Shown here one piece after another: positions 39,992 to 56,162 of a stretch of DNA of 64,000 bases; the stretch's first letter is position 1; each line of letters begins with the position of its first letter. A program made the position numbers and the translations under genes. Where the stretch lies: NCBI GenBank assembly GCA_012970285.1, contig JIBW01000004.1, forward strand, positions 1 to 64,000, read 5' to 3'. Under the pieces are notes generated by a model, which was not told where the DNA came from, did not search any database, and worked only from the letters and a program-made list of their open reading frames with translations. The DNA comes from Bacillaceae bacterium JMAK1 (GTDB lineage: Bacteria > Bacillota > Bacilli > Bacillales > Marinococcaceae).

Positions 39992-40024
39992 ACGGTGAAT
40001 TTGAAAGTGGGGATTGTCATTACA

Positions 40025-41919: not shown

Positions 41920-41949
41920 TTGACATGTATACTAGTATGCACTTAAAAT
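41920..41949 (+). promoter_or_regulatory. gntR promoter with 16-bp operator in the spacer
   Basis: TTGACA (41920-41925) is followed by TAAAAT (41944-41949). Between them is TGTATACTAGTATGCA (41926-41941), an almost perfect palindrome. Its core GTATACTAGTAT recurs after the gene at 42720-42731. GntR/FCD regulators bind short AT-rich palindromes like this and often repress their own gene. Confidence 0.7.
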
Positions 41950-41980
41950 TATCTTAATTCAGAATACAAGCAGGTGAATT

Positions 41981-42682
41981 ATGGCAAACATAACATTTCC
42001 ACGAAAGACGTTAGGCACTGAAATCTACCGTTATTTGTATAACGAAGTAATAACGTTGAAGTATAAGCCAGGTCAAATGATTTCAGAGAACGAACTTGCG
42101 CAGTTGCTTGGTGTGAGTAGAACACCGATTCGTGAGGCTATCCGTTTGTTGTCATCGGAAGGGTTTCTACGAGTGATTCCGCAAAAGGGGATTCAAGTTG
42201 AGTACATTTCATTAAATAAAGTGAAAGAAGCCTTTCAAGTACGTGAGAGTTTAGAACGGACAGCATTTCGGCAAGTTGCCGAATCATGGAATCCAGAGAC
42301 AAAAGAAGCGACATACCATAAAAGAGTAGTTCTTGATGTCATTATGCAGCAGAAGGAAGCTGCCAACAAAGATGATTTAGAACAATTTTATCATTACGAT
42401 GAAGTGTTTCATGATAAAATTTTAGAAATTTGCGGAAATGAAACATTAAGTGAATATGTGAGGCAAGTGCGTGGGCATGTAAATCGTATGCGTTATCTAG
42501 AATTCTATGAAACACAAGAAACAGATCGAATTATTGAAGATCACGAACAGATGCTACAACTAATTGAGTCTAACGATGTTGCGGCTTTAGACACTAAGTT
42601 AACTGAGCACCTTAACAATGTCTGGGCGTACTATGATTACATTTTTGAGAAATATCCAGAGTACTTTTCATCAAGGCGGTAA
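41981..42682 (+). CDS. GntR family regulator, FCD subfamily
   Basis: A 233-aa protein. The winged helix (8-75) reads EIYRYLYNEVITLKYKPGQM, then SENELAQLLGVSRTPIREAIRLL and the wing. The C-terminal FCD helical domain (80-225) has the metal ligands Asp (VLDVIM), His (FHDKIL) and later His in DHEQML and TEHLNNVW. FCD-type GntR proteins sense organic acids such as lactate, pyruvate, gluconate and aromatic acids. This regulator opens the catabolic island, and operators flank it on both sides. Confidence 0.9.
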   Translation: MANITFPRKTLGTEIYRYLYNEVITLKYKPGQMISENELAQLLGVSRTPIREAIRLLSSEGFLRVIPQKGIQVEYISLNKVKEAFQVRESLERTAFRQVAESWNPETKEATYHKRVVLDVIMQQKEAANKDDLEQFYHYDEVFHDKILEICGNETLSEYVRQVRGHVNRMRYLEFYETQETDRIIEDHEQMLQLIESNDVAALDTKLTEHLNNVWAYYDYIFEKYPEYFSSRR

Positions 42683-42702
42683 ACGTAAAAGCTTTACTGT
42701 CC

Positions 42703-42731
42703 TTTACTTGCTCTAACTTGTATACTAGTAT
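42703..42731 (+). promoter_or_regulatory. Promoter overlapped by second GntR-type operator
   Basis: TTTACT (42703-42708) and TAGTAT (42726-42731) are 17 bp apart. GTATACTAGTAT (42720-42731) repeats the core of the gntR operator exactly and covers the -10. It would let the GntR protein control the downstream operon. Confidence 0.6.
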
Positions 42732-42974
42732 CTCAGTCTCGTGGCTGATTAAGAAAACGGCTGATTTTAATACAAAATGTACGATACAGGTACGATGAAT
42801 TTGTTCAGATCATGGAGATTTCATTGTAAATAAGACTATTTTGTGGAGAAATTAAATGCATTGAATTCTGAAGTGAGAAAATGGATATCTGAGTATTGTG
42901 AAAAAATGTTATGTCTTTCTCAATTACCTAAATCTATAAAATAGATGGGTGCATTCAATATAAGCAGCTATTTT

Positions 42975-42988
42975 AGAAAGCGCTTACG
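42975..42988 (+). promoter_or_regulatory. cre-like box before the catabolic operon
   Basis: AGAAAGCGCTTACG fits 12 of 14 positions of the CcpA consensus TGWAANCGNTNWCA. It lies about 170 bp before the first enzyme gene. Confidence 0.5.
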
Positions 42989-43150
42989 TAATGGGGTGTT
43001 AGTTGTGAAGAGTAGAGGATTAATCAATGTAAGAGGTTATTATATGAAACGCACTTTGTTAAGAGTTCAACAATGGCATGGAAAAGCAGTTAAATAAGAA
43101 CAACTGTCGAATCGGCAGTAATAATTAAGAATTTGAGAGGAGTGGCTCAG

Positions 43151-43981
43151 ATGAGCTATAAGTATTCACTCGCACATTTAACAGCATTGGATTTAGCGCC
43201 TCACGAATTGACATATACGGCCGCAAAAGCAGGATATGACTATGTAAGCATTCGCCCGATTTACATGGGATTGCCTAACGAGCCAAATTATGATCTTGCA
43301 AACAAGAAAGAGATGTTTAGAGATACACGTAAAGCCTTACAGGAGACAGGGATTGAACTATTGGATATTGAGCTAGCAAAGATTAATAACGGTACCAACC
43401 CATTGGATTATGAACCTGCTTTTCATGTTGCTGCAGAGCTGGGTGGTAAGCACGTTCTAAGTAGCATATGGACAGAGGATACAGTGTTTGCCAAAGAATG
43501 TTTTGCAGAGCTTTGTGATATAGCAAAACCATATGGCTTGACGGTAGAGTTAGAATTTGTGCCAATTGCTACCGTATCAACCTTACAAGGTGCTGTGGAT
43601 GTATTAGAATCTACTAAACGATCAAATTCCGGATTGATGATTGACGCACATCATTTTCATCGTTCTAGAGATCGAGTTGAGGACTTAGATCATATTCCTG
43701 AAGAGTGGTTTCGTTATTTTCATTTGTGTGATGCTGTCGGTCAAATACCAGTTGACCGCGAGGAAATGACCCGAATTGTACGTGAAGAAAGGTTGTATAT
43801 AGGTGAAGGGGGCACCAATGTTGGTGAAGTCTTAAAACGGATTCCAAAAATTCCAATGTCACTCGAAATGCCTCATAAAGCACGTGCGAAAGAGTTCGGA
43901 AACGAAGAGTTTGTCCGGCGCTGCTTACAGTCAGCCAAAACGTTTATAGCATCGATAGAAGCAGAAGTAAATAAAAATTAA
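43151..43981 (+). CDS. TIM-barrel sugar-phosphate isomerase/dehydratase-like protein
   Basis: A 276-aa protein of the xylose isomerase-like TIM barrel (AP_endonuc_2) superfamily. Likely metal ligands are Glu135 (VELEFVP), Asp165 (MIDAHH), His191 (YFHLCDA) and Glu239 (SLEMP), the pattern of IolE/IolI-type enzymes and of 3-dehydroshikimate dehydratases. GAGAGGAGTGG supports the ATG at 43151. With a type I dehydroquinase in the same cluster, dehydroshikimate dehydration is a candidate activity. An inositol-type isomerase/dehydratase is equally compatible. Confidence 0.8.
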   Translation: MSYKYSLAHLTALDLAPHELTYTAAKAGYDYVSIRPIYMGLPNEPNYDLANKKEMFRDTRKALQETGIELLDIELAKINNGTNPLDYEPAFHVAAELGGKHVLSSIWTEDTVFAKECFAELCDIAKPYGLTVELEFVPIATVSTLQGAVDVLESTKRSNSGLMIDAHHFHRSRDRVEDLDHIPEEWFRYFHLCDAVGQIPVDREEMTRIVREERLYIGEGGTNVGEVLKRIPKIPMSLEMPHKARAKEFGNEEFVRRCLQSAKTFIASIEAEVNKN

Positions 43982-43991
43982 AGCGTTTTCA
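43978..43991 (+). promoter_or_regulatory. cre-like box at the iclR promoter
   Basis: TTAAAGCGTTTTCA fits 13 of 14 positions of the cre consensus, overlaps the stop codon of the TIM-barrel gene, and lies two bases before the iclR -35. Confidence 0.65.
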
Positions 43992-43993
43992 AA

Positions 43994-44065
43994 TTGACAC
44001 GCCATCCGTCCCGTTTTACAATGGTGGTACCATTTAACGAAATCGTGTTCTATTTAATGGAACAC
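43994..44065 (+). promoter_or_regulatory. Strong iclR promoter and IclR-type operator
   Basis: TTGACA (43994-43999) and TACAAT (44017-44022) have an ideal 17-bp spacer. About 20 bp downstream of the start, at 44045-44065, lies a 21-bp near-perfect palindrome with arms GTGTTC and GAACAC. Its core TTCTATTTAATGGAA (44048-44062) recurs with two changes upstream of the tctC operon. TGGTACCA at 44024-44031 is a further small palindrome. Confidence 0.8.
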
Positions 44066-44083
44066 CAAAAAGGCGGGTTATGA

Positions 44084-44812
44084 TTGGAAAAGAAAGATTC
44101 TTTGCGAACTGTGCAACGTGCGTTGGACATTCTAGATTGTTTTTCAATGGAAAAACAAGAGTTAACGTTGACAGAAATATCAAACATGATTGAGCTAGCT
44201 AAGTCAACGACAACTAGGATGCTCTCTACGTTGGAAACAAACGGCTTAATTATAAAGAATGAGAGTACGATGAAATACAAACTTGGTCATAAATTGTATT
44301 ATTTGGGTTCAATTGCTGGAAAGTCATTTGATATTAAAGAAGTCGCAAAGCCTGTTATGTCGAGGCTACGTGAACTAACATCCGAAACGGTGAACTTGTA
44401 TACTATTGCCAATGATCGCAGAATCTGTATCGAGCAATTTGAAGGGTTTCGCCCCCTTCGCCATCTCGTGTCGTTAGGACAACCATTGCCTTTATTTGCT
44501 GGGGCCGGGGGAAAGGTGTTACTTGCTTATCAAAGCCCTGCATTCCAGGAACGAATTTTTAAACAGATGAACAATCCTGAACGGTTAGAAGTTCTAAAAC
44601 GTGACTTAAAACAAATTAAAGAACAGGGTTATGCTGTCACCCATGAAGAAAGGGAGCAAGGGTTGTCGGCCATTTCTGCCCCGATTTTTAATCAAAACGG
44701 AGAAGTTCACTACTGTATATCGATCAGTGGTTTAGCTCAAAGATTTACAGAAGAGAATGTGGATAACTACTTAGCAAGTCTAAAAGAGCTTGTACACCAG
44801 CTATTAAGTTAG
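44084..44812 (+). CDS. IclR family regulator
   Basis: A 242-aa protein. The N-terminal winged helix (1-70) reads SLRTVQRALDILDCFSME, TEISNMIELAKSTTTRMLSTLE and YKLGHKLYYLG. The effector domain (75-240) has VNLYTIANDRRICIEQFEG, GAGGKVLLAY and EQGLSAISAPIFNQNGEV. The TTG start is supported by AAAGGCGGGTT. IclR proteins regulate catabolism of aromatic, glyoxylate and quinate/shikimate-type acids. The palindromes at its own promoter and at the tctC promoter make it the likely regulator of this island. Confidence 0.92.
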   Translation: MEKKDSLRTVQRALDILDCFSMEKQELTLTEISNMIELAKSTTTRMLSTLETNGLIIKNESTMKYKLGHKLYYLGSIAGKSFDIKEVAKPVMSRLRELTSETVNLYTIANDRRICIEQFEGFRPLRHLVSLGQPLPLFAGAGGKVLLAYQSPAFQERIFKQMNNPERLEVLKRDLKQIKEQGYAVTHEEREQGLSAISAPIFNQNGEVHYCISISGLAQRFTEENVDNYLASLKELVHQLLS

Positions 44813-44827
44813 AAAGTGGGGATATCT

Positions 44828-45655
44828 ATGAGTCGTAGTGCATTAGAAGCCTATTCAAATGGTGGTGCATGGTGGGAAACAAGTATTAGTCATATTAAGA
44901 AGAATGAAATTATAATACGTGGAGAGCGCGTTGAAGATTTAATCGGTAATGTTTCATATACACAAATGCTGTTTTTTTTACTTTGTGGAAAGCATTTGAC
45001 AGAGGGACAAGCGAAATTATTTGAGAGTGTTCTCGTTGCTGGAGCAGATCATGGACCACGCGCTCCCTCTATTGCAGCAGCACGTATGGCGGCAACATGT
45101 GGGGTATCTTTTAATTCTGCCGTTGCAACTGGCATGAATATGCTCGGAGATGTTCATGGAGGAGCGGTAGAGGAAGCAATGAGCATCCTCTATAAAACGA
45201 AAGAAAATCTTGCAAACAATGAAAATGCCGTAGATGAAAAACTTACGGAAATTTTTAGTCGGAAAGGAAAACTGCCTGGCTTTGGACATCAACTACATGA
45301 TGATGATCCGCGTGTCAGCCGGCTGTATTCATTGTCAGAACAGTTAATCTCCAGTGGAGAGATTAGTGGTTCATACTTAGATATCTTAGCAACTTATCGT
45401 GATCGCCTTTCAGAACGAAAAGGGCGCAAAATGACAATTAACGTGGACGGTATCTCTGCTGCTATTCAATGTGAACTTGAAATCCCTGCTGAAGCGGCAA
45501 AAGGTATCTTTGCTCTTTCACGAGGAATGGGGATTGTTGCGCACGCTTATGAAGAATTAATGAGCGGGGTTCGAATTAAAGGACCTTGTCCGAATGAAGA
45601 GCACCTCGTTCGATATACTGGCGTCCAAAAACAGAATGGGGGAGAACTATCATGA
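44828..45655 (+). CDS. Citryl-CoA-lyase-like protein (short citrate-synthase fold)
   Basis: A 275-aa protein, well short of citrate synthase (about 370-430) and similar in size to the citryl-CoA lyase module of ATP-citrate lyase. Landmarks are His75 (GADHGPRAPS), the CS-like His110 in GDVHGGAVEEAM and His154 in GFGHQLHDDDPR (the CoA-binding GFGHxxxxxDPR). Loss of the N-terminal condensation region suggests it cleaves or forms a 3-hydroxyacyl-CoA related to citryl-CoA rather than making citrate. AAGTGGGGA precedes the ATG at 44828. It overlaps the aldehyde dehydrogenase gene by four bases. Confidence 0.8.
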   Translation: MSRSALEAYSNGGAWWETSISHIKKNEIIIRGERVEDLIGNVSYTQMLFFLLCGKHLTEGQAKLFESVLVAGADHGPRAPSIAAARMAATCGVSFNSAVATGMNMLGDVHGGAVEEAMSILYKTKENLANNENAVDEKLTEIFSRKGKLPGFGHQLHDDDPRVSRLYSLSEQLISSGEISGSYLDILATYRDRLSERKGRKMTINVDGISAAIQCELEIPAEAAKGIFALSRGMGIVAHAYEELMSGVRIKGPCPNEEHLVRYTGVQKQNGGELS

Positions 45656-47079
45656 AAAAAGCACAATCGTTTATTCAAGGACAGTGGGTTGAAAAAAATA
45701 CCGAGGGTCTAGATATCGTAAACCCCTACAACGGCGAAGTGATTGGCAAACAGTGGGAAGCGGAACAAGAAGATGTTGAGCGGGCATTAGCCAAGGCGTA
45801 CGAAGGAAAGAAATTCGTAGCTGGACTCTCGGCTGCAAAGCGGGCAGAAATTTTGAAAAAATCTGCATATCTACTAGCGGAGCAAAAGGAAACGTTTGCT
45901 AAACTTATTTCTTTGGAAGTTGGAAAAGCCTTAAAGAATACGCGCGATGAAGTCTCTCGTTCTATTGAGACACTGGAGCAGTCAGCAGAAGAGGCAAAGC
46001 GATTAATTGGTGAGACAATTCCTGGAAATGCGTCTGAACGTGGCAAAAACTCAATGGCACTGACATTTCGAATACCTGCAGGCGTAATTGCTGCCATTAC
46101 ACCATTCAACGCCCCGCTTAATCTCGTATGTCATAAGGTCGGACCGGCTTTTGCTGCGGGTAACGTCACATTGTTAAAGCCAGCACCGCAAACAACACTC
46201 GTTGCCACTGCCTTTGTCGAATTAATGGTAGAAGCAGGAATGCCAAAAGAAGCGCTTCACATGGTTCTTGGTGGTAGAGAAGTCGGTGAACAAATTGTTT
46301 CAGATGAACGCACGAATATTATTTCATTTACAGGCGGTGTCCCAGCTGGTCAGCAAATTTCTAAAATTTCAGGAATGAAGAAAGTACTACTTGAGCTTGG
46401 TGGGAATTCTGCAACGATTGTTCACTCTGACGCAGATGTAGAGCGAGCAGCCACATTAAGCGTTAAAACAGGGTTTAGCAATTCTGGCCAAAGCTGTATT
46501 TCCGTTCAACGTATTTATGTTCACGAACAAGTCATTGAACAATTTGTCAAAAAAGTCTATGAAAAAGTAAGTGAACTTAAGCAAGGCGATCCTCTTGATG
46601 AGACAACTGATGTAGGATGTGTTGTTGACGCAAACACGGGCAAGAGAATTGCAACTTGGATTGAAGAAGCCGTTTCTGACGGTGCTGAATTAATTGCAGG
46701 AGGTGTGGTTGATGGTGCTGCAGTTCAGCCATCTGTTCTTTATCGACCAAAACCGACGAGCAAAGTTGTATGCAACGAAGTGTTTGGGCCACTCATCAGT
46801 ATTCTCCCTTATAGTGACTTAGATGCTGTAATCACAGAAGTAAATGACTCCGAATTTGGCTTGCAAGCCGGTATTTTCTCAAACTCTATGGATGTAATTA
46901 GAAAAGCCGCCATCGAATTGGAGATGGGCGGGGTTGTTGTTAATGGCACGTCGAACTATCGTCTTGATCACTGGCCGTACGGAGGAATTAAAAATAGCGG
47001 TCTTGGCCGTGAAGGTGCACGTTTTGCCGTCGAAGAAATGACAGAAATGAAAATGATTGTTCTACAAGACTTAATGTAA
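45652..47079 (+). CDS. NAD(P)-dependent aldehyde dehydrogenase
   Basis: A 475-aa protein of full family length. It has catalytic Cys282 (NSGQSCISVQ), general base Glu248 (LLELGGNSA), Asn153 (TPFNAPLN) and the cofactor loop FTGGVPAGQQI. It is closest in style to glycolaldehyde/lactaldehyde or succinate-semialdehyde-type dehydrogenases. It overlaps the lyase gene by ATGA. In the pathway it probably oxidises the aldehyde produced by the ThDP enzyme or by C-C cleavage. Confidence 0.9.
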   Translation: MKKAQSFIQGQWVEKNTEGLDIVNPYNGEVIGKQWEAEQEDVERALAKAYEGKKFVAGLSAAKRAEILKKSAYLLAEQKETFAKLISLEVGKALKNTRDEVSRSIETLEQSAEEAKRLIGETIPGNASERGKNSMALTFRIPAGVIAAITPFNAPLNLVCHKVGPAFAAGNVTLLKPAPQTTLVATAFVELMVEAGMPKEALHMVLGGREVGEQIVSDERTNIISFTGGVPAGQQISKISGMKKVLLELGGNSATIVHSDADVERAATLSVKTGFSNSGQSCISVQRIYVHEQVIEQFVKKVYEKVSELKQGDPLDETTDVGCVVDANTGKRIATWIEEAVSDGAELIAGGVVDGAAVQPSVLYRPKPTSKVVCNEVFGPLISILPYSDLDAVITEVNDSEFGLQAGIFSNSMDVIRKAAIELEMGGVVVNGTSNYRLDHWPYGGIKNSGLGREGARFAVEEMTEMKMIVLQDLM

Positions 47080-47097
47080 AAGGGAGAGTTGTGAAAT

Positions 47098-47871
47098 ATG
47101 AAGAAACAGGTGAAATTGTCGATACCTCAACAAAGTGAGCAAAAACGCCCGCTTATTTGTACACCATTGACGGGGAGCGATCGCAATTCATTAATGACAC
47201 AGTTGGAAGTCATTGTAAAAAAGAACCCTGACATGATTGAGTGGCGAGTCGATTTCTTTGAGAAGCTTGATGATCTGCAAGCAGTGAAATCAGTGGCTGA
47301 AGAAATCCGAAATCGATCTGCTCACATTCCGATTCTTTTTACTCGTAGGTCGACTCGAGAAGGTGGAGAAGAGATTACAATTAGCGAAAAGCAAGTGTTT
47401 AATATGTATGAGGCAATGATGATTAGCAAAACGGTAGACCTCATCGATGTTGAGCTCAGCGCAGACCAAGCGGATATAGATAGAGTAAAGAGGTTGGCAG
47501 AAGACCATCATGTGCAATTATTAATGTCTTATCACAACTTTTCAGAGACACCGAGTGTAGAAGAAATCTACAACAAATTGAAAGAGACAGAAGATCAGGG
47601 TGCGGATATTGGCAAAATTGCCGTCATGCCACAATCGATTGAAGACGTGCTGAGTCTGATGCAAGCGACGACGAAAGCTTCCAAACACCTTTCAATTCCA
47701 ATCGTCACGATGTCAATGGGGCGCCTCGGTGCACTTTCTCGAATGATGGGTGGAGCCTGTGGTTCAGCTATGACCTTTGCTGTCGGTAGTGCAAGTTCGG
47801 CACCTGGGCAAATGCCGATTGAACAGCTTAATGCTGTGTTGCAAGTGATTGAAGATGTAATGGGGGAATGA
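47098..47871 (+). CDS. aroD: Type I 3-dehydroquinate dehydratase
   Basis: A 257-aa protein with the whole type I active site: Glu48, Arg50 and Asp52 (MIEWRVDFF), His146 (SYHNFSETP), the Schiff-base Lys173 (IGKIAVMP) and Arg209 (SMGRLG). It dehydrates 3-dehydroquinate to 3-dehydroshikimate. Embedded in a catabolic operon without other shikimate-pathway genes, it is more likely catabolic (quinate use) than biosynthetic. Its position is just before a zinc dehydrogenase that could make 3-dehydroquinate. The ribosome site is GGGAGAG. Confidence 0.92.
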   Translation: MKKQVKLSIPQQSEQKRPLICTPLTGSDRNSLMTQLEVIVKKNPDMIEWRVDFFEKLDDLQAVKSVAEEIRNRSAHIPILFTRRSTREGGEEITISEKQVFNMYEAMMISKTVDLIDVELSADQADIDRVKRLAEDHHVQLLMSYHNFSETPSVEEIYNKLKETEDQGADIGKIAVMPQSIEDVLSLMQATTKASKHLSIPIVTMSMGRLGALSRMMGGACGSAMTFAVGSASSAPGQMPIEQLNAVLQVIEDVMGE

Positions 47872-47875
47872 CATT

Positions 47876-48877
47876 GTGAGCGAGTTATTTATTGCTGAAC
47901 CGAATTCTTTAGTTCTTAGAGAATCTGAACCACTAGGCCGCGTAGGGGCTAATGAAGTGAAGATTCGTGTGACTTATGGTGGGATCTGTGGTTCTGACCT
48001 TTCTGTGTACCGTGGCAAAATACAACATGCGACATATCCTGTGAGGCCAGGTCACGAACTCGTCGGTATTGTCAAAGAAGCAGGTAGCATTGCGAACGTT
48101 ACGAAAGGAACAAGGGTCGTTGTTACACCGAATACATTCTGCGGGGAATGTGAGTATTGTTTGAGCGAACAAGAAAATATATGCCCGAATAAGAAATCAA
48201 TTGGAATAAATGCCGATGGTGGATTTTCTCATGAATTTGTTATTGATGCTCGTTATGTTATTCCGATTCCAGATGAAGTTTCCGATGAAAAGGCAGTACT
48301 AATTGAACCTTTGGCAGTTATTGTTCACGGTCTCAAAAAACTCAATTTGAGAAAAGGAAATTCAGTACTCGTAATTGGTTGTGGGACTGAAGGATTGTTA
48401 ACAGTTGCACTTGCTGATTATTTAGGAGCTAACGTCACAGCAGTAGATATTAACGCAGAGAAACTAGAAATGCTAAAATCTTTCCCGCACATTCAAGCAA
48501 CGCACCCGAACGATATTGAACCTGACACCTTTGATTATGTTGTTGAAGCGGCGGGAACTCCTCAGTCGGTACAATCTTGTTTTCGTTGGTTAAAACCGGG
48601 AGGTTCTGTTCTTCTAATCGGTATCACAAACGCATCAGAATTACCGGTTGGCCAAATTGTAAGAAAAGAACAGACGATTTACGGAAGCATCATTTATCGA
48701 TTTCCTAAAGATTTTGCAGAAAGTATTGAATACCTTTCAGACGAACGGTTCGATCCAACAGTGTTTATTTCAAAGATTTTACCGTTAGAAAACTACGAAG
48801 AAGCGTATGAGCTTGCACTTTCAGGTAACTTTGCAAAAATTATCATTGATTTTCAAAACAAGGAGGAACAACCATGA
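47876..48877 (+). CDS. Zinc-dependent medium-chain dehydrogenase
   Basis: A 333-aa protein. The catalytic zinc site has Cys in GGICGSD and GHE, and the structural zinc site is CGECEYCLSEQENIC. Its Rossmann motif departs from GxGxxG: VIGCGTEGL. It belongs to the sorbitol/threonine dehydrogenase group (polyol to ketone). The GTG start has GGGGGAATGA upstream, and the end overlaps the ThDP gene by four bases. In a cyclitol-acid pathway it would oxidise a ring hydroxyl, for example of quinate or shikimate. That role is inference. Confidence 0.88.
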   Translation: MSELFIAEPNSLVLRESEPLGRVGANEVKIRVTYGGICGSDLSVYRGKIQHATYPVRPGHELVGIVKEAGSIANVTKGTRVVVTPNTFCGECEYCLSEQENICPNKKSIGINADGGFSHEFVIDARYVIPIPDEVSDEKAVLIEPLAVIVHGLKKLNLRKGNSVLVIGCGTEGLLTVALADYLGANVTAVDINAEKLEMLKSFPHIQATHPNDIEPDTFDYVVEAAGTPQSVQSCFRWLKPGGSVLLIGITNASELPVGQIVRKEQTIYGSIIYRFPKDFAESIEYLSDERFDPTVFISKILPLENYEEAYELALSGNFAKIIIDFQNKEEQP

Positions 48878-50637
48878 AGAAACTCATTTCGACTCAGTTA
48901 GTCAAATATTTAGAAGATCGGAATGTTGAGCATATATTCGGATTATGCGGACATACAAATATTGCCGTATTATCCGAGCTTGATAAAAGCTCTATACAAT
49001 TTATTAATGTGCGCCATGAACAAATTGCTTCACATGCTGCAGACGGGTATGCCCGTGCCAAGAAAGAAACTTCAGTCGTGTTAAGTCACTTAGGACCTGG
49101 CTTGACTAATGCGGCTACTGGAGTTGCTAACGCAGCGCTCGATTCGATTCCAATGGTTGTGATTGCAGGTGATGTGCCGAGTCATTATTACGGCAAGCAC
49201 CCTCACCAAGAAGTGAATCTTCATGCAGACGGTGCTCAATACGAAATTTATCGTCCTTTTGTCAAACGTGCTTGGCGTGTCGACCGTCCCGACCTATTCC
49301 CAGAAATCATACAAAAGGCGTTCCAAGTAGCAGAAAGTGGTCGTCCAGGGCCTGTTCTCGTATCCGTTCCGATGGATATCTTCTCTAAAGAGGTAGATAC
49401 CAGCCTTTTCGAAAAGCTCCAGCATCATACCCGCGTGATTGAGAAGCCATCACTTGATGAAGAAACAGCAGAGCGTATCGTTAAAACATTAGCGGAGGCG
49501 AGTCGTCCTGTTATTTATGCGGGCGGCGGTGTCGTATTGGCAGATGCAACGGAGGAAATTCGCGAGTTCGTCGATCATATGAATATTCCGGTTGCCCATT
49601 CTTTAATGGGGAAAGGTGTCTTACCCGATGATCACCCGCTTACTTTAGGAATGACAGGTTTTTGGGGCACCAAATTCATCAATGATCAGACGAAAAATGC
49701 AGATTACCTTTTTGGGTTAGGAACAAGTTTTAAAGAAGCAGACAGCAGTTCATGGTATCCGGGCGTGACGTTTGAGATACCGAAGACGAAGCTTATTCAA
49801 ATTGATATCGATCCAAATGAAATTGGACGTAATTATCCGGTAGAGATTGGCGCAATAGCAGACTTGAAGCGAGCGTTAATGGCCTTAATTCGTGTTGCAA
49901 AACGTTTATACCCAGAAGGAATTCAACGAAATGAACAATTAAAAGAAGACATTCAGGCATATCGAAATGACTTGCGTGAGCGAATTAGTGACAATGTAAA
50001 TAGCAATGCCTTTCCGATGAAACCTGAGAGAATTTTGTCAGATGTGCGAGAAGTATTGCCTCGTGATGCGTTCATTACGACAGATGTGGGATGGAATAAG
50101 AATGGCGTAGGGCAACAGTTCCCAATCTACACACCAGGATCTATTCTGACACCAGGTGGTTTTGCAACGATGGGATTTGGTTCAAGTGCCGCACTTGGGG
50201 CAAAACTTGCCCACCCGGATCGTGTAGTCGTTTCTCTCATCGGCGACGGTGGTTTCGGTCAGAACCCAGCAGTTTTGGCAACGGCAGTTGAAGAGAATAT
50301 TCCAGTCGTATGGGTTGTCATGAATAATAGTGCATACGGTACGATCGCTGGCTTAGAAATGGCTCATTATGATACGACATACGGAACATTATTCAAGAAA
50401 AACGGCGAAACATATACGCCTGACTTTGCGGTGATTGCGCAAGGATTTGGAGTTAAAGGAATTAAAGTAAAGAGTGCAGAGGAATTCAAAGATGCAGTCA
50501 AGGAAGCTATAGAGGCCAATGAACCTGTTCTCATTGATGTTGCCATGCGAAATGAGCCTGTCCCTACAGATGGTCAGTGGAATATTAATGATATTTATTC
50601 ACCAAACAGCACCAAATCACACGTTAGCATTCCGTAA
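48874..50637 (+). CDS. Thiamine-diphosphate-dependent enzyme (acetolactate-synthase-like)
   Basis: A 587-aa protein in three domains: PYR domain 1-180 with the catalytic Glu49 in HEQIASHAADGYAR, a middle domain, and a PP domain with the ThDP motif GDGGFGQNPAVLATAVEENIP and NNSAYG. It has no regulatory-subunit partner. Relatives include acetolactate synthase, glyoxylate carboligase, benzoylformate/oxalyl-CoA decarboxylase and the inositol-pathway ring hydrolase IolD, so several C-C bond reactions are possible. It is translationally coupled to the dehydrogenase gene. Confidence 0.88.
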   Translation: MKKLISTQLVKYLEDRNVEHIFGLCGHTNIAVLSELDKSSIQFINVRHEQIASHAADGYARAKKETSVVLSHLGPGLTNAATGVANAALDSIPMVVIAGDVPSHYYGKHPHQEVNLHADGAQYEIYRPFVKRAWRVDRPDLFPEIIQKAFQVAESGRPGPVLVSVPMDIFSKEVDTSLFEKLQHHTRVIEKPSLDEETAERIVKTLAEASRPVIYAGGGVVLADATEEIREFVDHMNIPVAHSLMGKGVLPDDHPLTLGMTGFWGTKFINDQTKNADYLFGLGTSFKEADSSSWYPGVTFEIPKTKLIQIDIDPNEIGRNYPVEIGAIADLKRALMALIRVAKRLYPEGIQRNEQLKEDIQAYRNDLRERISDNVNSNAFPMKPERILSDVREVLPRDAFITTDVGWNKNGVGQQFPIYTPGSILTPGGFATMGFGSSAALGAKLAHPDRVVVSLIGDGGFGQNPAVLATAVEENIPVVWVVMNNSAYGTIAGLEMAHYDTTYGTLFKKNGETYTPDFAVIAQGFGVKGIKVKSAEEFKDAVKEAIEANEPVLIDVAMRNEPVPTDGQWNINDIYSPNSTKSHVSIP

Positions 50638-50674
50638 AGATTTCTCGGTCATATAGAAAGGAGTTAATAAATTC

Positions 50675-51874
50675 ATGGTTAAGACACCTTTAGAAGGAGT
50701 TACCATCCTTGATGTTTCGACAATGATTGCAGCCCCATATGGTACGGCACTTCTTGGGGACTTTGGCGCAGATGTAATCAAGATTGAAATTCCAGGAAGG
50801 GGAGATACCTCTCGCAGCGTCGGTCCATTTTCAGAGGATGGGGAACCACTTCGATGGCCGGGGCTTTCAAGAAACAAACGCTCACTAACATTGGACCTTC
50901 ACCAATCAGAAGGGGTAGAGATTTTAAAAAAACTCGCAAAAAAGGCAGACATTCTCGTTGAAAACTTTCGCCCAGGAACCCTTGAGAAGTGGGGCGTCGG
51001 ATATGACGTACTTAAAGAAGAAAATCCTAATTTGATAATGATTCGTGTATCAGGATATGGGCAGACTGGACCCTATAAAGAAAAAGCAGGATTTGGTACG
51101 CCTGCTACGGCATTCAGTGGCTACACATATCTTCAAGGATTTACAGATAGACACCCGGTCAGTCCGCCTTTTTCTTTAACGGATTACATTTGTGGTATTT
51201 ATGTTGCGTTTGCTGCGGTTACTGCTCTATACAATCGTGATACATCTGAAGAAGGCAGCGGTCAAATGGTCGACATTGCCTTGTATGAAACGGTGTTCCG
51301 GATGATGGAATTTCTTGTGGCAGAATATGATCAGCTTCAAAAAGTACGTGAACGTGCACCTGGTCTTCATGGGCACTCCTCACCTTCGGGGACGTTTAAA
51401 ACAAAAGACGGTCATTGGGTTGTCCTCGTGACGAGTACTGATACGACGTTTAACCGTTTGGCTGATGCGATGGACAGGAAAGATATGTTGGAAGATCAAC
51501 GTTATTTTACTAATTCAAAACGACTCGAAAACAACGATGAAACGAATCGGATTGTAGGAGAGTGGATTGCTACGAAAGAACGCAAGGATTTACTTGAGCA
51601 ATTAGATCAATACGGTGTTCCGATCAGTCCTGTGATGAGTATTGAAGACATATTCAATGATGAGCAGTATAAGGCAAGGGAGAATATCGTCCAAGTTAAT
51701 CACCCGCGACTTGGGACTATAAAAGTTCCAGGAATTATTCCAAAGTTCGAAAAGACACCGGGTAGTATTCGTAGTATCGCCCCTGATCTTGGTGAAAATA
51801 ACGAAGAAATTCTTGCGGATATAGGTTTAACAGTAGATGAAATCGTGCAATTAAGAACGAAAAACGTGATATAA
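50675..51874 (+). CDS. Class III CoA-transferase (CaiB/BaiF family)
   Basis: A 399-aa protein. The family signature runs LLGDFGADVIKIEIPGRGD, SRNKRSLTLDLHQSEG and ADILVENFRPGTLEKWGVGY, with the catalytic Asp170 in SLTDYICG. Such enzymes move CoA between carboxylates without free CoA. AAGGAG is upstream of the ATG. It is the last plus-strand gene of the island. It would activate the imported acid for the citryl-CoA-lyase-like enzyme, using for example acetyl- or succinyl-CoA; that partnership is inferred from the cluster. Confidence 0.9.
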   Translation: MVKTPLEGVTILDVSTMIAAPYGTALLGDFGADVIKIEIPGRGDTSRSVGPFSEDGEPLRWPGLSRNKRSLTLDLHQSEGVEILKKLAKKADILVENFRPGTLEKWGVGYDVLKEENPNLIMIRVSGYGQTGPYKEKAGFGTPATAFSGYTYLQGFTDRHPVSPPFSLTDYICGIYVAFAAVTALYNRDTSEEGSGQMVDIALYETVFRMMEFLVAEYDQLQKVRERAPGLHGHSSPSGTFKTKDGHWVVLVTSTDTTFNRLADAMDRKDMLEDQRYFTNSKRLENNDETNRIVGEWIATKERKDLLEQLDQYGVPISPVMSIEDIFNDEQYKARENIVQVNHPRLGTIKVPGIIPKFEKTPGSIRSIAPDLGENNEEILADIGLTVDEIVQLRTKNVI

Positions 51875-51996
51875 GCAGGGTTAATAAATATGTGGTGGGT
51901 GTAGCTCAAGCTAACAACTGTAATGTACTTTTGAAAGGAAGCTGAGCCATAACTCCTACAACTCAAACATCATAAATAGAAAGATCTTAAAAAAGA

Positions 51997-52052
51997 GAAA
52001 ATCCGAACTCATTCACATTCTAAAAGTAGAATAATGAATTGTTCGGATTTTC
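51997..52052 (+). terminator. Long hairpin after the CoA-transferase gene
   Basis: GAAAATCCGAAC (51997-52008) and GTTCGGATTTTC (52041-52052) are perfect complements, with further imperfect pairing inside. T-rich DNA follows. It probably ends the catabolic transcript. Confidence 0.7.
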
Positions 52053-52344
52053 TTATTGCGGGGCTATGTAACAACGCGATCAAAAAGAGTACAGCACCCT
52101 ATTTTCTCAAATAAATTAAAGGTATTCTAAGCACGTTTTCTGAATAGCGATACATTGACTGCCGATACATGCTAAATAAAGAGGGAATAGAACAGCTTCA
52201 CTTTGAAATGAGAATATTTATAACAAGGGTTTTAGTTAAAGTACTCTAACTTAAGATATGGAGAAGAGCTATAACTTTGAGTTAAGCGAACGTAGTAACT
52301 TTATTTGGTTGGTTAGAAGAGGAGTAATTTGATTATGCAAGAAT
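52053..52344. other. About 290 bp between convergent operons, no gene seen
   Basis: AT-rich sequence between the catabolic and transporter terminators. No frame with a ribosome site, repeat or clear promoter was found. Confidence 0.5.
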
Positions 52345-52387
52345 AAAACGCGGCAAGAGCTTGCAATCCATGCTCTTGCCGCGTTTT
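52345..52387. terminator. Strong terminator at the end of the tct operon
   Basis: AAAACGCGGCAAGAGC (52345-52360) and GCTCTTGCCGCGTTTT (52372-52387) form a perfect 16-bp stem, 24 bp past the tctA stop. It gives T runs on both strands. Confidence 0.9.
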
Positions 52388-52410
52388 GCTTTTTGGTATG
52401 AGATTCCCGA

Positions 52411-53925
52411 TTAAGCTTGCTGTTTCTTAGGAAAGATCCTTTGCTTTAGCTTTTTGTAAATGGGTGTTTGTGAAAAAATTGTAAAAACGATAACGATTGA
52501 GAGCACGAGACTGATTGGATTAGTTATAAATCCTGATAGGAAATCAGGCATTGAACCGTTGGCGGACATATAAGCCCGTCTAAAAGAAGTATCGATTAGT
52601 GGTCCGAGTATAATGCCTAATACAAGCGGCGCAACTGAAAAATTATGCACTTTCATAAAGAATCCGATCAATCCGAAACCAAGCATCCAATAGACATCGG
52701 TTAGACTATAATTCATTGCGTACGAACCAATAACTGTGATGACTGCAATGATTGGGAGTAGAATTTGTTTTGGAACCGTGACAATTCGTATGAAAATGGA
52801 AACGACCATCAAACCGAAAATGAGTAGAAATATGTTTGCAAGAATAGAAGACCCTACCATGACCCAAAAGAGATCCCCGCTCTGGGTCATCAGCATTGGA
52901 CCCGGTTGCAGTCCGTGTATAAAGAGAGCGCCAATGAATATTGCAGTTACGGCATCCCCTGGGATTCCAAGTGTAAGCATTGGGATCATGGCACCACCAA
53001 TGGCTGCGCTGTTTCCTGCCTCAGGCGCAATAACCCCTGCATGGGCGCCTTCTCCGAATGGTCGATTTGGATTCTTGGTTGAACGTTTTGCATGATCATA
53101 CGATAGTAGAGCGGCGATTTCACCACCTGCACCTGGTAACGCACCTGTAAGTACCCCTAGAATTGAAACTCGCAAAGAAAGCGGCAGAAATTTAAAGATA
53201 AAGCGAAGGGGTGGAATAATCATTTTCTTAATCTCAACTGGATTACCTTGACGCTTTAGCTCTCGCATCTGATAGAGAATCTCTGACATGCCAAAGAGAC
53301 CGAGTAGTGCAATAATAAAGTCAATACCGTTCATTAATTGCAATGAACCAAATGTAAATCGTGAGCCTCCGCCAATTGGATCCATACCGATCAATCCAAT
53401 GACGATTCCTGCCCCAGCTGAGAAAAGCCCTTTGGCGATGGTTCCGTTGCTCAAGTTACCAACTAATAGTAGTCCGAGCATTGCGAGTAGGAAATAATCG
53501 CGATTTGCGAATTGTACGGCAAATGAAGCAACAACAGGTGCTGCGCTTGCTAACACGATGACACCGATAAGTCCACCAACAAACGAAAAGATTGTTGTAA
53601 GAAAAAGCGCGAGACCGGCTTCACCTTTCTGAGACATCGGATATCCATCCAGTGATGTTGCAACAGAAGCAGGTGATCCAGGGATATTTACGAGAATGGC
53701 TGCCCTTGAACCCCCGTAAACGCCTCCATAATAAACGCCGAGCATGAGCGCAAGCGCCGGTAGCATATCCCAAGAATAGGTGAGGGAAAGTAACAAGGCG
53801 ACGGCCATTGTCACTGATAACCCTGGAATTGCACCGATAAAGATTCCCGCCAGTGTTCCAGCGGCCACAAGTAAGAGCAGTTCCCAATCAAAAAAAGGAA
53901 TTAAGATTTGTTGTAAAAATTCCAT
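52411..53925 (-). CDS. tctA: Tripartite tricarboxylate transporter, large membrane subunit TctA
   Basis: A 504-aa protein of the TctA family with about twelve helices. It has the family segments GIFIGAIPGLSVTMAVALLL, YYGGVYGGSRAAILVNIPGSPASVATSLDGYPM and, in the second half, GALPGAGGEIAALLSYDHAKR with GVIAPEAGNSAAIGGAMIPMLTLGIPG. It is the permease of a binding-protein-dependent secondary carrier. AAGGAG precedes the ATG. It is the third gene of tctC-tctB-tctA, convergent with the catabolic genes. The substrate is probably a carboxylic acid. Confidence 0.93.
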   Translation of the reverse strand: MEFLQQILIPFFDWELLLLVAAGTLAGIFIGAIPGLSVTMAVALLLSLTYSWDMLPALALMLGVYYGGVYGGSRAAILVNIPGSPASVATSLDGYPMSQKGEAGLALFLTTIFSFVGGLIGVIVLASAAPVVASFAVQFANRDYFLLAMLGLLLVGNLSNGTIAKGLFSAGAGIVIGLIGMDPIGGGSRFTFGSLQLMNGIDFIIALLGLFGMSEILYQMRELKRQGNPVEIKKMIIPPLRFIFKFLPLSLRVSILGVLTGALPGAGGEIAALLSYDHAKRSTKNPNRPFGEGAHAGVIAPEAGNSAAIGGAMIPMLTLGIPGDAVTAIFIGALFIHGLQPGPMLMTQSGDLFWVMVGSSILANIFLLIFGLMVVSIFIRIVTVPKQILLPIIAVITVIGSYAMNYSLTDVYWMLGFGLIGFFMKVHNFSVAPLVLGIILGPLIDTSFRRAYMSANGSMPDFLSGFITNPISLVLSIVIVFTIFSQTPIYKKLKQRIFPKKQQA

Positions 53926-53937
53926 TATGCTGGCTCC

Positions 53938-54393
53938 TTAAGGGAAGACAATGTTAAAAAGCTGCGAAAACAAGAAATAAATAATCATGACAGTAGCAAC
54001 AGAGACAATGATATTCGTGTACCACTTAATACCTTTAAGTAGATAAATGCTGATGATCAAAAACAAGGTCGTACTAATGAGAAAAGGCAAGAAGGACAGT
54101 GACAACACATATAAAACGATAAAGATAAAGTAAGAAAATATAAGTAGGTAATCACTATTGGAAAATGCTTTTTCCTTCTCTTCGTCAGTTTTTGTGGTTA
54201 CTTCTTTTCTAAGGTCGTTAATAATCGTGACGATTCCACAAATGATGAGTACGATGGCAATGATTCCGGGTAGAAAACCACCACCTGAAGGGTTTAGCTG
54301 TTCCGTCCCCTGAATTAGAAGAGATTGGTATAAAATGACCAAGCTGACGATAATCATCACAATGCCGGGTAGGGTTCGTCGTAATGTAATCAT
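53938..54393 (-). CDS. tctB: Tripartite tricarboxylate transporter, small membrane subunit TctB
   Basis: A 151-aa protein. A first helix (LPGIVMIIVSLVILYQSLL), then GGGFLPGIIAIVLIICGIV and two more helices near 85-105 and 115-145, give the four-helix TctB layout. The ATG at 54393 is preferred; the longer frame upstream lacks a ribosome site and overlaps the tctC tail region. Twelve bases separate it from tctA. It is required with TctA for transport in the known Salmonella and Bordetella systems. Confidence 0.88.
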   Translation of the reverse strand: MITLRRTLPGIVMIIVSLVILYQSLLIQGTEQLNPSGGGFLPGIIAIVLIICGIVTIINDLRKEVTTKTDEEKEKAFSNSDYLLIFSYFIFIVLYVLSLSFLPFLISTTLFLIISIYLLKGIKWYTNIIVSVATVMIIYFLFSQLFNIVFP

Positions 54394-54479
54394 GTGCTCT
54401 CGCGTCCTCACTTTATTGTAGATAGAATAAAAAGTTAAATTGAAAGAGAGGGCGCACATTGCACCCCCAACTTTAGAGT

Positions 54480-55505
54480 TTAGTCAAGATCTTCAACTCT
54501 TGGAATTCCAAATTCTTCAGGTGAACTTTCAGTTGCACCTGCATCATAGAGTAGCCAAGCCGATACCGCTTGTGTTTGTTGCATCCACTCGACTGCTTCA
54601 TCACCGCTAATATTAATTGGTTCTGCCCCTAATGAGGAGAGAAGTTCTTGAAATGATTCCTCAGCGACTGCTTCATTAAATGCATCAACGAGTGTCGATT
54701 TAATATCATCCGGTGTGTCAGGGTGGACAAATGCGCCGTAGAAAGGCCCCCATGGTAAGTACTTTTCGAATTCAGGGTATAGATCACTTAATGCTGGTGC
54801 ATCCCAAGCGTCAACTTCTTCATTATGAACAATTGAAAGCATCCGAATATCGCCGGCTTCAACATATTCTTGTGCACCGGCAACACCAACAACGGTCGCA
54901 TCAATTTGATTTCCAAGCATCGCAGTAAACAGTGGACCGTCTCCATCGTATGGGACTTGATTGAATTCAGTACCGAGTTCTGCGGAAAGCATCGAAGCGA
55001 CAACGTGTGGCAAGCCGCCTTCGCCGCTTGTTCCCAACGTTAAATCACCAGGATTATCTTGCGCATATTCAATGAGATCTTCTAATGTTTCGAATTCTGA
55101 GTCATCTTTCACTACGATTCCTGCAAGCCCTTGTCCAATAATATTGACTGGATAGAAATCTTCAATGTAATCTCTTTCAGAAATTCCTAGAACATTGTAA
55201 ATGAGTGGATTCTCTGCTCCAAACAGCACATTGTAGCCGTCTGAAGGTTGGTCATACACATATTGTGTTGCAATCGCACCAGTAGCGCCTTCTCGATTTT
55301 GCATGACAAAGGATGCATCCAAAGCCTCCTCAGCTTGAATTGCGAGACTTCGTGCAACATTGTCCGTTGCTCCGCCTTCACCCCACTGAATAATTCCATT
55401 AATGTCTCGAGATGGGTAGTTACTTTCCCCTGAAGTCTCCGATGATTCACATGCACCGAGTACAACAACTGCCATCATCCCCGTTAACAAGCCAAACTTT
55501 TTCAT
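54480..55505 (-). CDS. tctC: Tripartite tricarboxylate transporter, lipoprotein substrate-binding subunit TctC (BugT type)
   Basis: A 341-aa protein. The signal peptide ends in lipobox VLGAC (Cys19), so it is a membrane-anchored lipoprotein. The two-lobe Bug fold shows IIQWGEGGATDNVARSL at the ligand site, GATGAIATQYVYDQPSDGY and LGTSGEGGLPHVVASML. It is strongly acidic throughout. Unlike classic Bug proteins (PxxPGGxxD) it has WGEGGATDN, so the ligand may differ. GAAGGGGG supports the ATG at 55505. The gene is preceded by an IclR-type operator and a cre-like box. Confidence 0.92.
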   Translation of the reverse strand: MKKFGLLTGMMAVVVLGACESSETSGESNYPSRDINGIIQWGEGGATDNVARSLAIQAEEALDASFVMQNREGATGAIATQYVYDQPSDGYNVLFGAENPLIYNVLGISERDYIEDFYPVNIIGQGLAGIVVKDDSEFETLEDLIEYAQDNPGDLTLGTSGEGGLPHVVASMLSAELGTEFNQVPYDGDGPLFTAMLGNQIDATVVGVAGAQEYVEAGDIRMLSIVHNEEVDAWDAPALSDLYPEFEKYLPWGPFYGAFVHPDTPDDIKSTLVDAFNEAVAEESFQELLSSLGAEPINISGDEAVEWMQQTQAVSAWLLYDAGATESSPEEFGIPRVEDLD

Positions 55506-55524
55506 AGAATAACCCCCTTCGTAT

Positions 55525-55538
55525 ATAAAGCGCTTACA
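55525..55538 (-). promoter_or_regulatory. cre-like box upstream of tctC
   Basis: On the minus strand TGTAAGCGCTTTAT matches 12 of 14 cre positions. It lies between the IclR-type operator and the ribosome site, as expected for CcpA roadblock repression. Confidence 0.65.
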
Positions 55539-55552
55539 AATATCGCTAATTG

Positions 55553-55567
55553 TTCCATTCAATGGAA
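55553..55567 (-). promoter_or_regulatory. IclR-type operator upstream of the tct operon
   Basis: TTCCATTCAATGGAA is a perfect palindrome around its central base and matches the operator core at iclR (TTCTATTTAATGGAA) at 13 of 15 positions. A further half site, AATGGAAC, follows at 55581-55588. TACAAT on the minus strand nearby is a possible -10. Confidence 0.75.
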
Positions 55568-56162
55568 TTAAATATTGTATAATGGAACAGATGATTAACA
55601 GAATTGTAGCACTGTTTTCACATCATGTCACGAACTTTTTTGAAAGCTACGCAAAAGCTTTTGACAACTAGTAGTGATTAATACAAACGTTAACTTCTAT
55701 ATTTATAAATAAGATGATATAGGGAGCTAGACAAGTGGTTAAAAGTAAATGTGGCTGCTCAGTCACAGTTGGTAGGAACTTGAAAAATGTCCGGAAATTA
55801 TAATGGAAGATTCAGAAATATGTAGTGGGGATAGCTGAACTAGTTCTCTATATTAAAAGAGCACTAACTATTATAGGAAGATAAAGAGAATTACGTTTCA
55901 TAGTTGGGTCAATTCTTTTCATGGTAATAGATGTAATACTTCTAATGAAAATACTAGTATTAGGAGTGCTTTTCAATTATACCTTTTTATAAGTTGATTT
56001 AAAATGAGGAAGTGCGCTTCTCATTTAAGATGGCAAGCCACTTCCCCGTGTGTTACGAGAAGTAATAGTAAATTGAATTGGCACTCTATTGACTAACTGC
56101 ATACATAAATTGTGAGTTCTTCCACCTTTCTATTTATTAGGGAGAGCGAATAAATAATATGT
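55568..56162. other. About 600-bp gap with a possible third GntR-type site
   Basis: No gene was found in this AT-rich gap, which must contain the tct promoter on its right flank. ATACTAGTAT at 55951-55960, inside AATACTAGTATT, repeats the 10-bp core of the two GntR-type operators at the other end of the island. A weak hairpin (GAAGTG/CACTTC) at about 56010-56050 may end the CPBP transcript. Confidence 0.45.

Follow-up and report, generated by a model that had tools for sequence, protein, structure and literature searches.

A cluster of twelve genes in a stretch of 64,000 nucleotides from Bacillaceae bacterium JMAK1 (contig JIBW01000004.1, positions 1 to 64,000, hereafter the window) is probably a catabolic operon for quinate or shikimate. 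The source strain is a Geomicrobium (Bacillota) with a genome of 4.12 Mb. The substrate would never pass through protocatechuate; the ring would be opened in the style of inositol catabolism, and the degradation would end in acetyl-CoA and 2-oxoglutarate. Both the enzyme families and the substrate class, the hydroaromatic acids, are known; the route was not found in print. On balance, and with some reserve, we favour the view that it represents a second, oxygenase-free quinate/shikimate route in Bacillota, with relatives in Pseudomonadota and Actinomycetota, which would join inositol-style ring opening to a reversed homocitrate-synthase-type cleavage and would be assembled from interchangeable parts, i.e. 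two dehydroquinases, two lyases, two ways of forming a thioester and three kinds of dehydratase.

Gene content of the cluster

Nine open reading frames (ORFs) on the plus strand, from gntR to the CoA-transferase gene, face tctC-tctB-tctA on the minus strand. They are listed below with ORF positions and Pfam or NCBIfam families; ThDP stands for thiamine diphosphate and TIM for triosephosphate isomerase. The likely starts given for three genes were judged from the upstream sequence.

41981..42682, plus strand: GntR/FCD regulator (PF00392, PF07729)
43133..43981, plus strand: xylose-isomerase-like TIM barrel (PF01261), likely start ATG 43151
44084..44812, plus strand: IclR-family regulator, heading the enzyme operon (PF09339, PF01614)
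44816..45655, plus strand: citryl-CoA-lyase-family enzyme (NF004864), likely start ATG 44828
45652..47079, plus strand: aldehyde dehydrogenase (PF00171)
47098..47871, plus strand: type I 3-dehydroquinate dehydratase (dehydroquinase; TIGR01093)
47876..48877, plus strand: zinc (MDR) alcohol dehydrogenase (PF08240, PF00107)
48874..50637, plus strand: ThDP enzyme of the acetolactate-synthase superfamily (PF02776, PF00205, PF02775)
50675..51874, plus strand: class III CoA-transferase (PF02515)
52411..53925, minus strand: TctA membrane subunit (PF01970)
53938..54459, minus strand: TctB membrane subunit (PF07331)
54480..55562, minus strand: TctC solute receptor (PF03401), likely start ATG 55505

An original prediction, made from the sequence of the window, had described nine plus-strand genes converging on a TctABC importer, and all twelve ORFs and their families are as it stated. 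It had also called the genes tightly coupled. This holds from iclR to the CoA-transferase gene, where the gaps are 3, -4, 18, 4, -4 and 37 bp, including two overlaps of 4 bp, but not upstream of iclR, where 450 bp separate gntR from the TIM-barrel gene and 102 bp separate the latter from iclR. The G+C content of the cluster is 0.418, compared with 0.404 across the window.

Proposed pathway

We infer the substrates, the order and the products of every step; the gene families, the clustering, the replacements and the operator-like sites are read from the sequence. TctABC would import the hydroaromatic acid. The zinc dehydrogenase would then oxidise the C3 hydroxyl, giving 3-dehydroquinate from quinate or 3-dehydroshikimate from shikimate; in relatives a Gfo/Idh/MocA enzyme resembling inositol dehydrogenase, or AroE, may act beside it or in its place. 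The dehydroquinase would interconvert 3-dehydroshikimate and 3-dehydroquinate. Acting like IolE, the TIM barrel would take the C5 hydroxyl off 3-dehydroquinate as water while C4 becomes a ketone, so that a ring 1,2-dione is formed, 1-hydroxy-3,4-dioxocyclohexane-1-carboxylate. IolE dehydrates inosose, and IolD hydrolyses a ring dione. The ThDP enzyme would similarly hydrolyse the C3-C4 bond of the dione, like IolD or cyclohexane-1,2-dione hydrolase (CDH), yielding OHC-CH2-C(OH)(COOH)-CH2-CH2-COOH. The aldehyde dehydrogenase would convert this homocitrate-semialdehyde to homocitrate and the class III CoA-transferase would convert homocitrate to homocitryl-CoA, while in some relatives one CoA-acylating dehydrogenase may do both. 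Finally, the citryl-CoA-lyase-like enzyme, or an HMG-CoA-lyase-like (hydroxymethylglutaryl-CoA) enzyme, would split homocitryl-CoA into acetyl-CoA and 2-oxoglutarate. The net conversion would be C7 to C2 plus C5 with no loss of carbon, and the CoA could come from succinyl-CoA made out of 2-oxoglutarate. As a matter of arithmetic the atom balance closes (C7H12O6, C7H10O6, C7H8O5, C7H10O6, C7H10O7).

The ring opening of a cyclitol acid would yield a homologue of citrate, and this would account for the presence of a citryl-CoA-lyase-like enzyme. The substrate had been guessed beforehand to be either a cyclitol acid or a citrate-like polycarboxylate; these two options can be reconciled if quinate or shikimate is the substrate and a citrate homologue the product of ring opening.

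Conservation across genomes

To compare clusters we used 35 loci (numbered L; genomes are numbered G), with the window included. The loci were picked by the lyase or by the ThDP enzyme, so the counts of these two are biased upward, and the presence of a gene was called with identity limits that we set. The ThDP gene is found in 35 loci, the citryl-CoA lyase in 28, the aldehyde dehydrogenase in 27, the TIM barrel in 26, the zinc dehydrogenase in 25, the CoA-transferase in 23, the type I dehydroquinase in 13, the type II dehydroquinase in seven, and tctA and dctP in 13 each. A Gfo/Idh/MocA dehydrogenase is present in 13 loci, with a second type in L099; for the one in L012, IolG is the second-best match, far under its cut-off. 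Some loci are not independent, as one genome contributes three regions (L098-L100) and another two (L097 and L110). Left out were L051 (G018), where the stretch contains only IclR, citryl-CoA lyase and CoA-transferase of the set, without a ThDP gene, L017 and L020, which duplicate L097 and L109, and L045, which is not a cluster locus. G243, with two ThDP pieces at contig ends, was left out both of the 35 loci and of the 22 cluster genomes used below.

All five roles (dehydrogenase, dehydratase candidate, ThDP enzyme, thioester formation and lyase) are filled in 24 of the 35 loci. Seventeen loci were retrieved through the ThDP gene alone; ten of them have the citryl-CoA lyase, two an HMG-CoA lyase and five neither. 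In L047-L050, from the same family, the set from iclR to the CoA-transferase gene is kept with tctCBA divergent from iclR. The transporters vary, i.e. TctABC is one of several alternatives in the relatives. The set is more than a group of chance neighbours: other genera have it as a unit too, which is the conserved neighbourhood that the original prediction had proposed to look for, with tctA beside the set in the loci counted above.

A copy of the citryl-CoA lyase with at least 62% identity was found in 9 of 61 relative genomes, counting the window and the partial set of G018, and the lyase query gave 14 loci from named genomes in Geomicrobium, Terribacillus, Virgibacillus, Shouchella, Aneurinibacillus, Geobacillus and Anoxybacillus. 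Of the 398 genomes of the class searched with the ThDP enzyme, 17 have an orthologue (E up to 1e-180); these represent 14 of 145 genera. Two genomes of the same genus carry the cluster and a third (G001) does not.

Replacement of enzymes inside the cluster

Judged by their families, different enzymes swap in fixed roles within the cluster, and these replacements point to its chemistry. The associations below are one-sided Fisher values over the 35 loci and ignore relatedness.

A CoA-acylating aldehyde dehydrogenase occurs in six loci from four genera. In L101 its best model is acylating sulfoacetaldehyde dehydrogenase (477 bits against a cut-off of 600), and the other five were assigned by similarity to L101. 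All six lack the CoA-transferase as well as the ordinary aldehyde dehydrogenase (0.00002 for the ordinary against the acylating dehydrogenase, 0.0006 for the CoA-transferase against the latter). The acylating enzyme thus replaces the pair, so that a single step would suffice from the aldehyde to the CoA ester, and the substitution suggests that the carbon of the aldehyde becomes that of the thioester.

The lyase is exchanged as well. Two loci, both without the citryl-CoA lyase, have an HMG-CoA lyase over the cut-off of 246 (323 and 364 bits; Fisher 0.035). Lyases of both types split a 3-hydroxyacyl-CoA into acetyl-CoA and a carbonyl compound in a retro-Claisen reaction. A cupin of 137 residues, identified by PF07883 in L107 and by similarity in the other three, is present in four loci, all of which lack the TIM barrel (0.0024). 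Dehydroquinases are found in 20 loci, type I in 13 and type II in seven, never together (0.025).

Links to shikimate metabolism

In 16 of the 22 cluster genomes a shikimate kinase gene lies at most 12 kb from the ThDP gene, against 0.17 expected at random placement; the 12-kb limit was chosen after the distances had been seen, and a limit of 10 kb holds in 12 of the 22. This neighbouring kinase is the sole copy found (E up to 1e-20) in 13 of the 16. Together with the dehydroquinase in 20 of the 35 loci, it ties the cluster to hydroaromatic acids. The type II dehydroquinase of the cluster is an extra copy in six of the seven genomes that have one there, and the window genome holds a second type I dehydroquinase outside the cluster. 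A shikimate dehydrogenase gene is present in L100 (over the family cut-off) and in L110 (by similarity).

The second type I dehydroquinase of the window genome (L045 8459-11496, contig C5 at about 92.5-95.5 kb) stands between the shikimate kinase, which is not by the cluster in this genome, and a membrane protein of 455 residues without any Pfam or NCBIfam match. Relatives of the membrane protein adjoin the cluster in 10 of the 35 loci, so it may belong to an unnamed family of quinate/shikimate permeases.

Related runs are also found further away. According to its annotation, a plasmid of Azoarcus sp. KH32C carries, in this order, a divergent IclR gene, an HPPD-like (4-hydroxyphenylpyruvate dioxygenase) gene, TIM barrel, CoA-transferase, citryl-CoA lyase, ThDP enzyme, shikimate dehydrogenase and aroD. 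Its ThDP enzyme is 71% and its citryl-CoA lyase 41% identical to those of the window, and aroD and the lyase both pass their family cut-offs. The TIM barrel and the HPPD-like protein correspond to one half each of the model for the dehydroshikimate dehydratase QuiC, with scores far under the full-length cut-off. In the plasmid collection, Streptomyces and Nonomuraea records contain ThDP relatives with 50-51% identity, near which aldehyde dehydrogenase, IclR, CoA-transferase and citryl-CoA lyase are found at 29-49% identity. A shikimate dehydrogenase that passes its cut-off is also encoded in the Streptomyces stretch. A plasmid search with the citryl-CoA lyase at E 1e-60 gave no match despite the existing Azoarcus copy, and a phage search with the Azoarcus ThDP gene gave none.

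Enzyme and transporter families

The type I dehydroquinase passes the curated cut-off of TIGR01093 (218.1 vs 139.3 bits), and its PDB matches, 22 sequences, are 3-dehydroquinate dehydratases, bifunctional enzymes or AROM. The citryl-CoA-lyase-like enzyme passes that of NF004864 (PRK06224; 349 vs 261 bits) and has citryl-CoA lyase 6hxp as its best PDB match. The CoA-transferase passes the PF02515 cut-off with 391.4 bits but stays below the cut-offs of all seven NCBIfam models listed, i.e. it falls in no named donor or acceptor subfamily. Its best PDB match is 9br6, a succinate-hydroxymethylglutarate CoA-transferase; hydroxymethylglutarate is a structural analogue of homocitrate. The zinc dehydrogenase matches PF08240 and PF00107 and no specific family. 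TctABC is complete over the Pfam cut-offs (TctA 478.9, TctB 80.0 and TctC 126.8 bits), and the PDB matches of TctC include BugD, Bug27 and a terephthalate-binding protein.

The TIM barrel matches PF01261 and none of the NCBIfam models. Its structure model has a mean predicted local distance difference test (pLDDT) score of 85.8, and the folds nearest to the model include 2g0w, which is a putative sugar isomerase, as well as IolI (1i60), IolE (9zmv), epimerases and 5hmq, in which a TIM barrel is fused to HPPD. The ThDP enzyme has a G-H-x-N stretch in common with IolD, invariant across ten aligned orthologues. A sequence search with this enzyme finds CDH at 167 bits, and many other ThDP enzymes score higher. 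The structure model of the ThDP enzyme was poor (pLDDT 66.5) and was not used. A reading of the ThDP enzyme as a 2-hydroxyacyl-CoA lyase acting with a formyl-CoA transferase was rejected, as the phmmer scores for HACL/OXC are below those for ALS, GCL and BbmA; the links to shikimate genes do not fit that reading either.

Ring-cleavage dioxygenases

We searched 14 genomes for ring-cleavage dioxygenases; 13 of them carry the cluster and G018 only part of it. The window genome has no match to PF00775 (intradiol dioxygenases) or PF02900 (LigB), the two dioxygenase families that were searched. Among the 13 cluster genomes, PF00775 is absent from 12 and PF02900 from seven, and G018 has neither.

Evidence against the pathway and alternative explanations

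Several observations weigh against the proposed pathway. At least one role is absent within the stretch read in 11 of the 35 loci; one of these, L019, sits on a contig of only 8.7 kb. Loci of the Terribacillus type lack both the dehydroquinase and the zinc dehydrogenase, and in L100 and L110 there is no lyase but an acyl-CoA dehydrogenase. The ThDP enzyme fails the IolD cut-off (TIGR04377, 264.1 vs 715 bits) and scores higher with the acetolactate synthase model (TIGR00118, 437.5 bits), yet under the cut-off of 538.35 there too. The TIM barrel might instead act as a dehydroshikimate dehydratase and make protocatechuate; the Azoarcus neighbour resembles QuiC. Six of the 13 cluster genomes searched have LigB-family enzymes, and one (G021) has an intradiol dioxygenase. 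The shikimate kinase is more than 12 kb away or on another contig in 6 of the 22 genomes, including that of the window. In Azoarcus, the annotated shikimate dehydrogenase is below the AroE cut-offs (161 vs 252 bits for the best model), an aldehyde dehydrogenase is missing from the run, and identity to the CoA-transferase of the window is only 30%. Finally, the direction from 3-dehydroshikimate to 3-dehydroquinate is uphill.

Given that the ThDP enzyme is near the carboligases of the acetolactate-synthase type, it may act directly on 3-dehydroquinate, or on an isomer that the TIM barrel provides, and cleave the acyloin bond C3-C4. The substrate would still be hydroaromatic and no aromatic ring would be formed; the C5 hydroxyl would be kept, and the lyase would release acetyl-CoA and a hydroxylated 2-oxoacid, e.g. 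4-hydroxy-2-oxoglutarate. Sugar epimerases with the same TIM-barrel fold, which are common among the fold matches, fit this reading. We nevertheless hold direct cleavage to be rather unlikely, as no hydroxy-oxoglutarate aldolase was recognised in the window operon, the variation between TIM barrel, cupin and QuiC-like proteins suggests a dehydratase role, and the homocitrate route requires no additional enzyme.

The absence of PF00775 and PF02900 from the window genome, and of PF00775 from 12 of the 13 cluster genomes searched, speaks against the classical route. Here the zinc dehydrogenase, dehydroquinase and TIM barrel, candidates for all three classical roles, would make protocatechuate that is degraded or excreted elsewhere, and the lyase, CoA-transferase, ThDP enzyme and aldehyde dehydrogenase would serve a different acid. 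The match of the Azoarcus TIM barrel and HPPD-like protein to QuiC, a 3-dehydroshikimate dehydratase, fits this explanation. However, loci without a dehydroquinase still have the ThDP, lyase and activation genes together with the TIM barrel, and we consider the classical route improbable.

It is very doubtful that the substrate is some other cyclitol-type or tertiary hydroxy acid, with dehydroquinase and shikimate kinase adjoining the cluster for another reason. The dehydroquinase is indeed missing from 15 of the 35 loci, and the relatives of TctC with solved structures include the terephthalate-binding protein and Bug proteins, but two unrelated types of dehydroquinase, the shikimate kinase (in 16 of the 22 genomes) and the shikimate dehydrogenase all gather at one cluster. 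That the unit mainly salvages external shikimate or quinate into aromatic amino acids rather than for carbon is hardly credible despite the shikimate kinase and dehydroquinase genes beside transporters, as the ThDP enzyme, CoA-transferase, aldehyde dehydrogenase and lyase would be needless for salvage and yet are among the most conserved parts.

Degradation of itaconate or citramalate was also considered and was rejected as the main function of the cluster, since no itaconyl-CoA hydratase was recognised in the window operon.

Operator-like palindromes

Two kinds of operator-like palindromes were seen, at the following positions.

41926..41938: TGTATACTAGTAT, ahead of gntR; on inspection by eye, it lies between hexamers that resemble TTGACA and TAAAAT
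42719..42731: second copy of TGTATACTAGTAT, between gntR and the TIM-barrel gene
44047..44063: IclR-type operator-like palindrome GTTCTATTTAATGGAAC, 20 bp before iclR
55552..55568: GTTCCATTCAATGGAAT, a further operator-like palindrome of the IclR type, some 47 bp ahead of the probable start of tctC
55951..55960: third ATACTAGTAT, weak, roughly 390 bp ahead of the tctC ORF as listed

The IclR-type sequence GTTCYATTYAATGGAAY has only two sites in the genome at up to one mismatch, one before the iclR operon and one before tctC, and its reversed control has none. A unique palindrome shared by these two places suggests that the importer and the enzymes are co-regulated. Among 11 relatives, IclR-type palindromes (up to two mismatches, no shuffle control) are found by iclR and/or tctC in nine (L009, L010, L019, L047-L050, L107 and L111); there is none in L108, and the single match in L098 is far from iclR.

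The 12-base core GTATACTAGTAT of the GntR-type palindrome occurs twice in the 4.12-Mb genome, both times at the cluster, and the reversed control also occurs twice. As the core is no rarer than its control, the weight rests on position and conservation. The 10-base palindrome ATACTAGTAT has three matches in the window, against 0.06 expected. At equivalent places the GntR-type palindrome is present in L009, L010, L011 and L014. The same or a similar palindrome is found by gntR or before the citryl-CoA lyase in seven of eight relatives (these four, L015, L016 and L046); with the pattern used, there is none in L012. The neighbouring GntR and IclR proteins presumably bind their respective palindromes.

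Variants and surroundings of the cluster

In G018 (L051 8742-13610), the IclR, citryl-CoA lyase and CoA-transferase genes stand alone beside a LigK/RraA-like protein and a dehydrogenase of the malate/lactate type. This partial set may encode a sister pathway that acts on a different tertiary hydroxy acid. The variants in L100 and L110 combine the ThDP enzyme, shikimate dehydrogenase, a second TIM barrel, acyl-CoA dehydrogenase and aldehyde dehydrogenase. The best match of the acyl-CoA dehydrogenase in L100 is cyclohexane-1-carbonyl-CoA dehydrogenase, under the cut-off, and a different downstream route is possible in these variants. G160 has three ThDP orthologues (L098, L099 and L100) in about 47 kb, with the remaining enzyme genes split among them.

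In the Geomicrobium locus L010, genes for a Gfo/Idh dehydrogenase and for a TRAP transporter occupy the place of the 450 bp that separate gntR from the TIM-barrel gene in the window (42683-43132). This block is missing there from the window strain and from L009, and no clear remnant or deletion scar of it was seen in the gap, where the alignment to L010 is clear only at the gntR end and in the operator region. Upstream of the cluster, at 39995-41281, the window encodes a protein similar to BAAT-type acyl-CoA thioester hydrolases, and L009 has one too. There are eight TctA-family matches in the window genome (4.1 Mb), seven of them strong.

Relation to known systems

The bacterial qui/qsu genes take quinate and shikimate to protocatechuate, and the cleavage of its ring is oxygen dependent. 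In fungi, the qa genes lead to protocatechuate by a dehydrogenase, a dehydroquinase and a dehydroshikimate dehydratase (PMC12610400). The window cluster has the same likely substrates and candidates for the dehydrogenase and the dehydroquinase; unlike in the protocatechuate pathway, they are accompanied by a ThDP enzyme, an enzyme for CoA activation and a lyase of the citryl-CoA type. The catabolism of myo-inositol proceeds in the order IolG, IolE, IolD, IolA. The proposed pathway resembles it in that a ring alcohol would be oxidised, the ring ketone turned into a 1,2-dione by a TIM barrel and the dione opened by a ThDP hydrolase, whereas the end steps would be CoA activation and retro-Claisen cleavage here and are a kinase and an aldolase there.

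Compared with citryl-CoA lyase (6hxp), the window enzyme is of the same family and its proposed substrate, homocitryl-CoA, is one carbon longer. The CDH of Azoarcus, with H28 and N484 among its active-site residues, breaks a C-C bond of cyclohexane-1,2-dione with ThDP (PMC12247030); the window enzyme would likewise break a C-C bond of a ring 1,2-dione. In the degradation of itaconate and citramalate a CoA-transferase is paired with a hydroxyacyl-CoA lyase, citramalyl-CoA lyase (PMC12290011). The window operon differs in having extra genes for ring handling and no recognised hydratase.

No description of a non-aromatic quinate/shikimate route was found in the literature searched, from which subscription papers were mostly absent, so that prior work could be missed. 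The earlier suggestion of an undescribed route that avoids or complements protocatechuate is supported by the conserved synteny, whose absence would have spoken against it, and by the palindrome shared by the enzyme operon and tctC.

If the proposed pathway is true, quinate and shikimate can be degraded straight to acetyl-CoA and 2-oxoglutarate without an oxygenase and without loss of carbon, and the replacements would assign each orphan enzyme of the cluster a specific substrate. The route could bear on the degradation of hydroaromatic compounds by fermenting bacteria, of which Ilyobacter insuetus is reportedly one, and homocitrate would gain a catabolic role.

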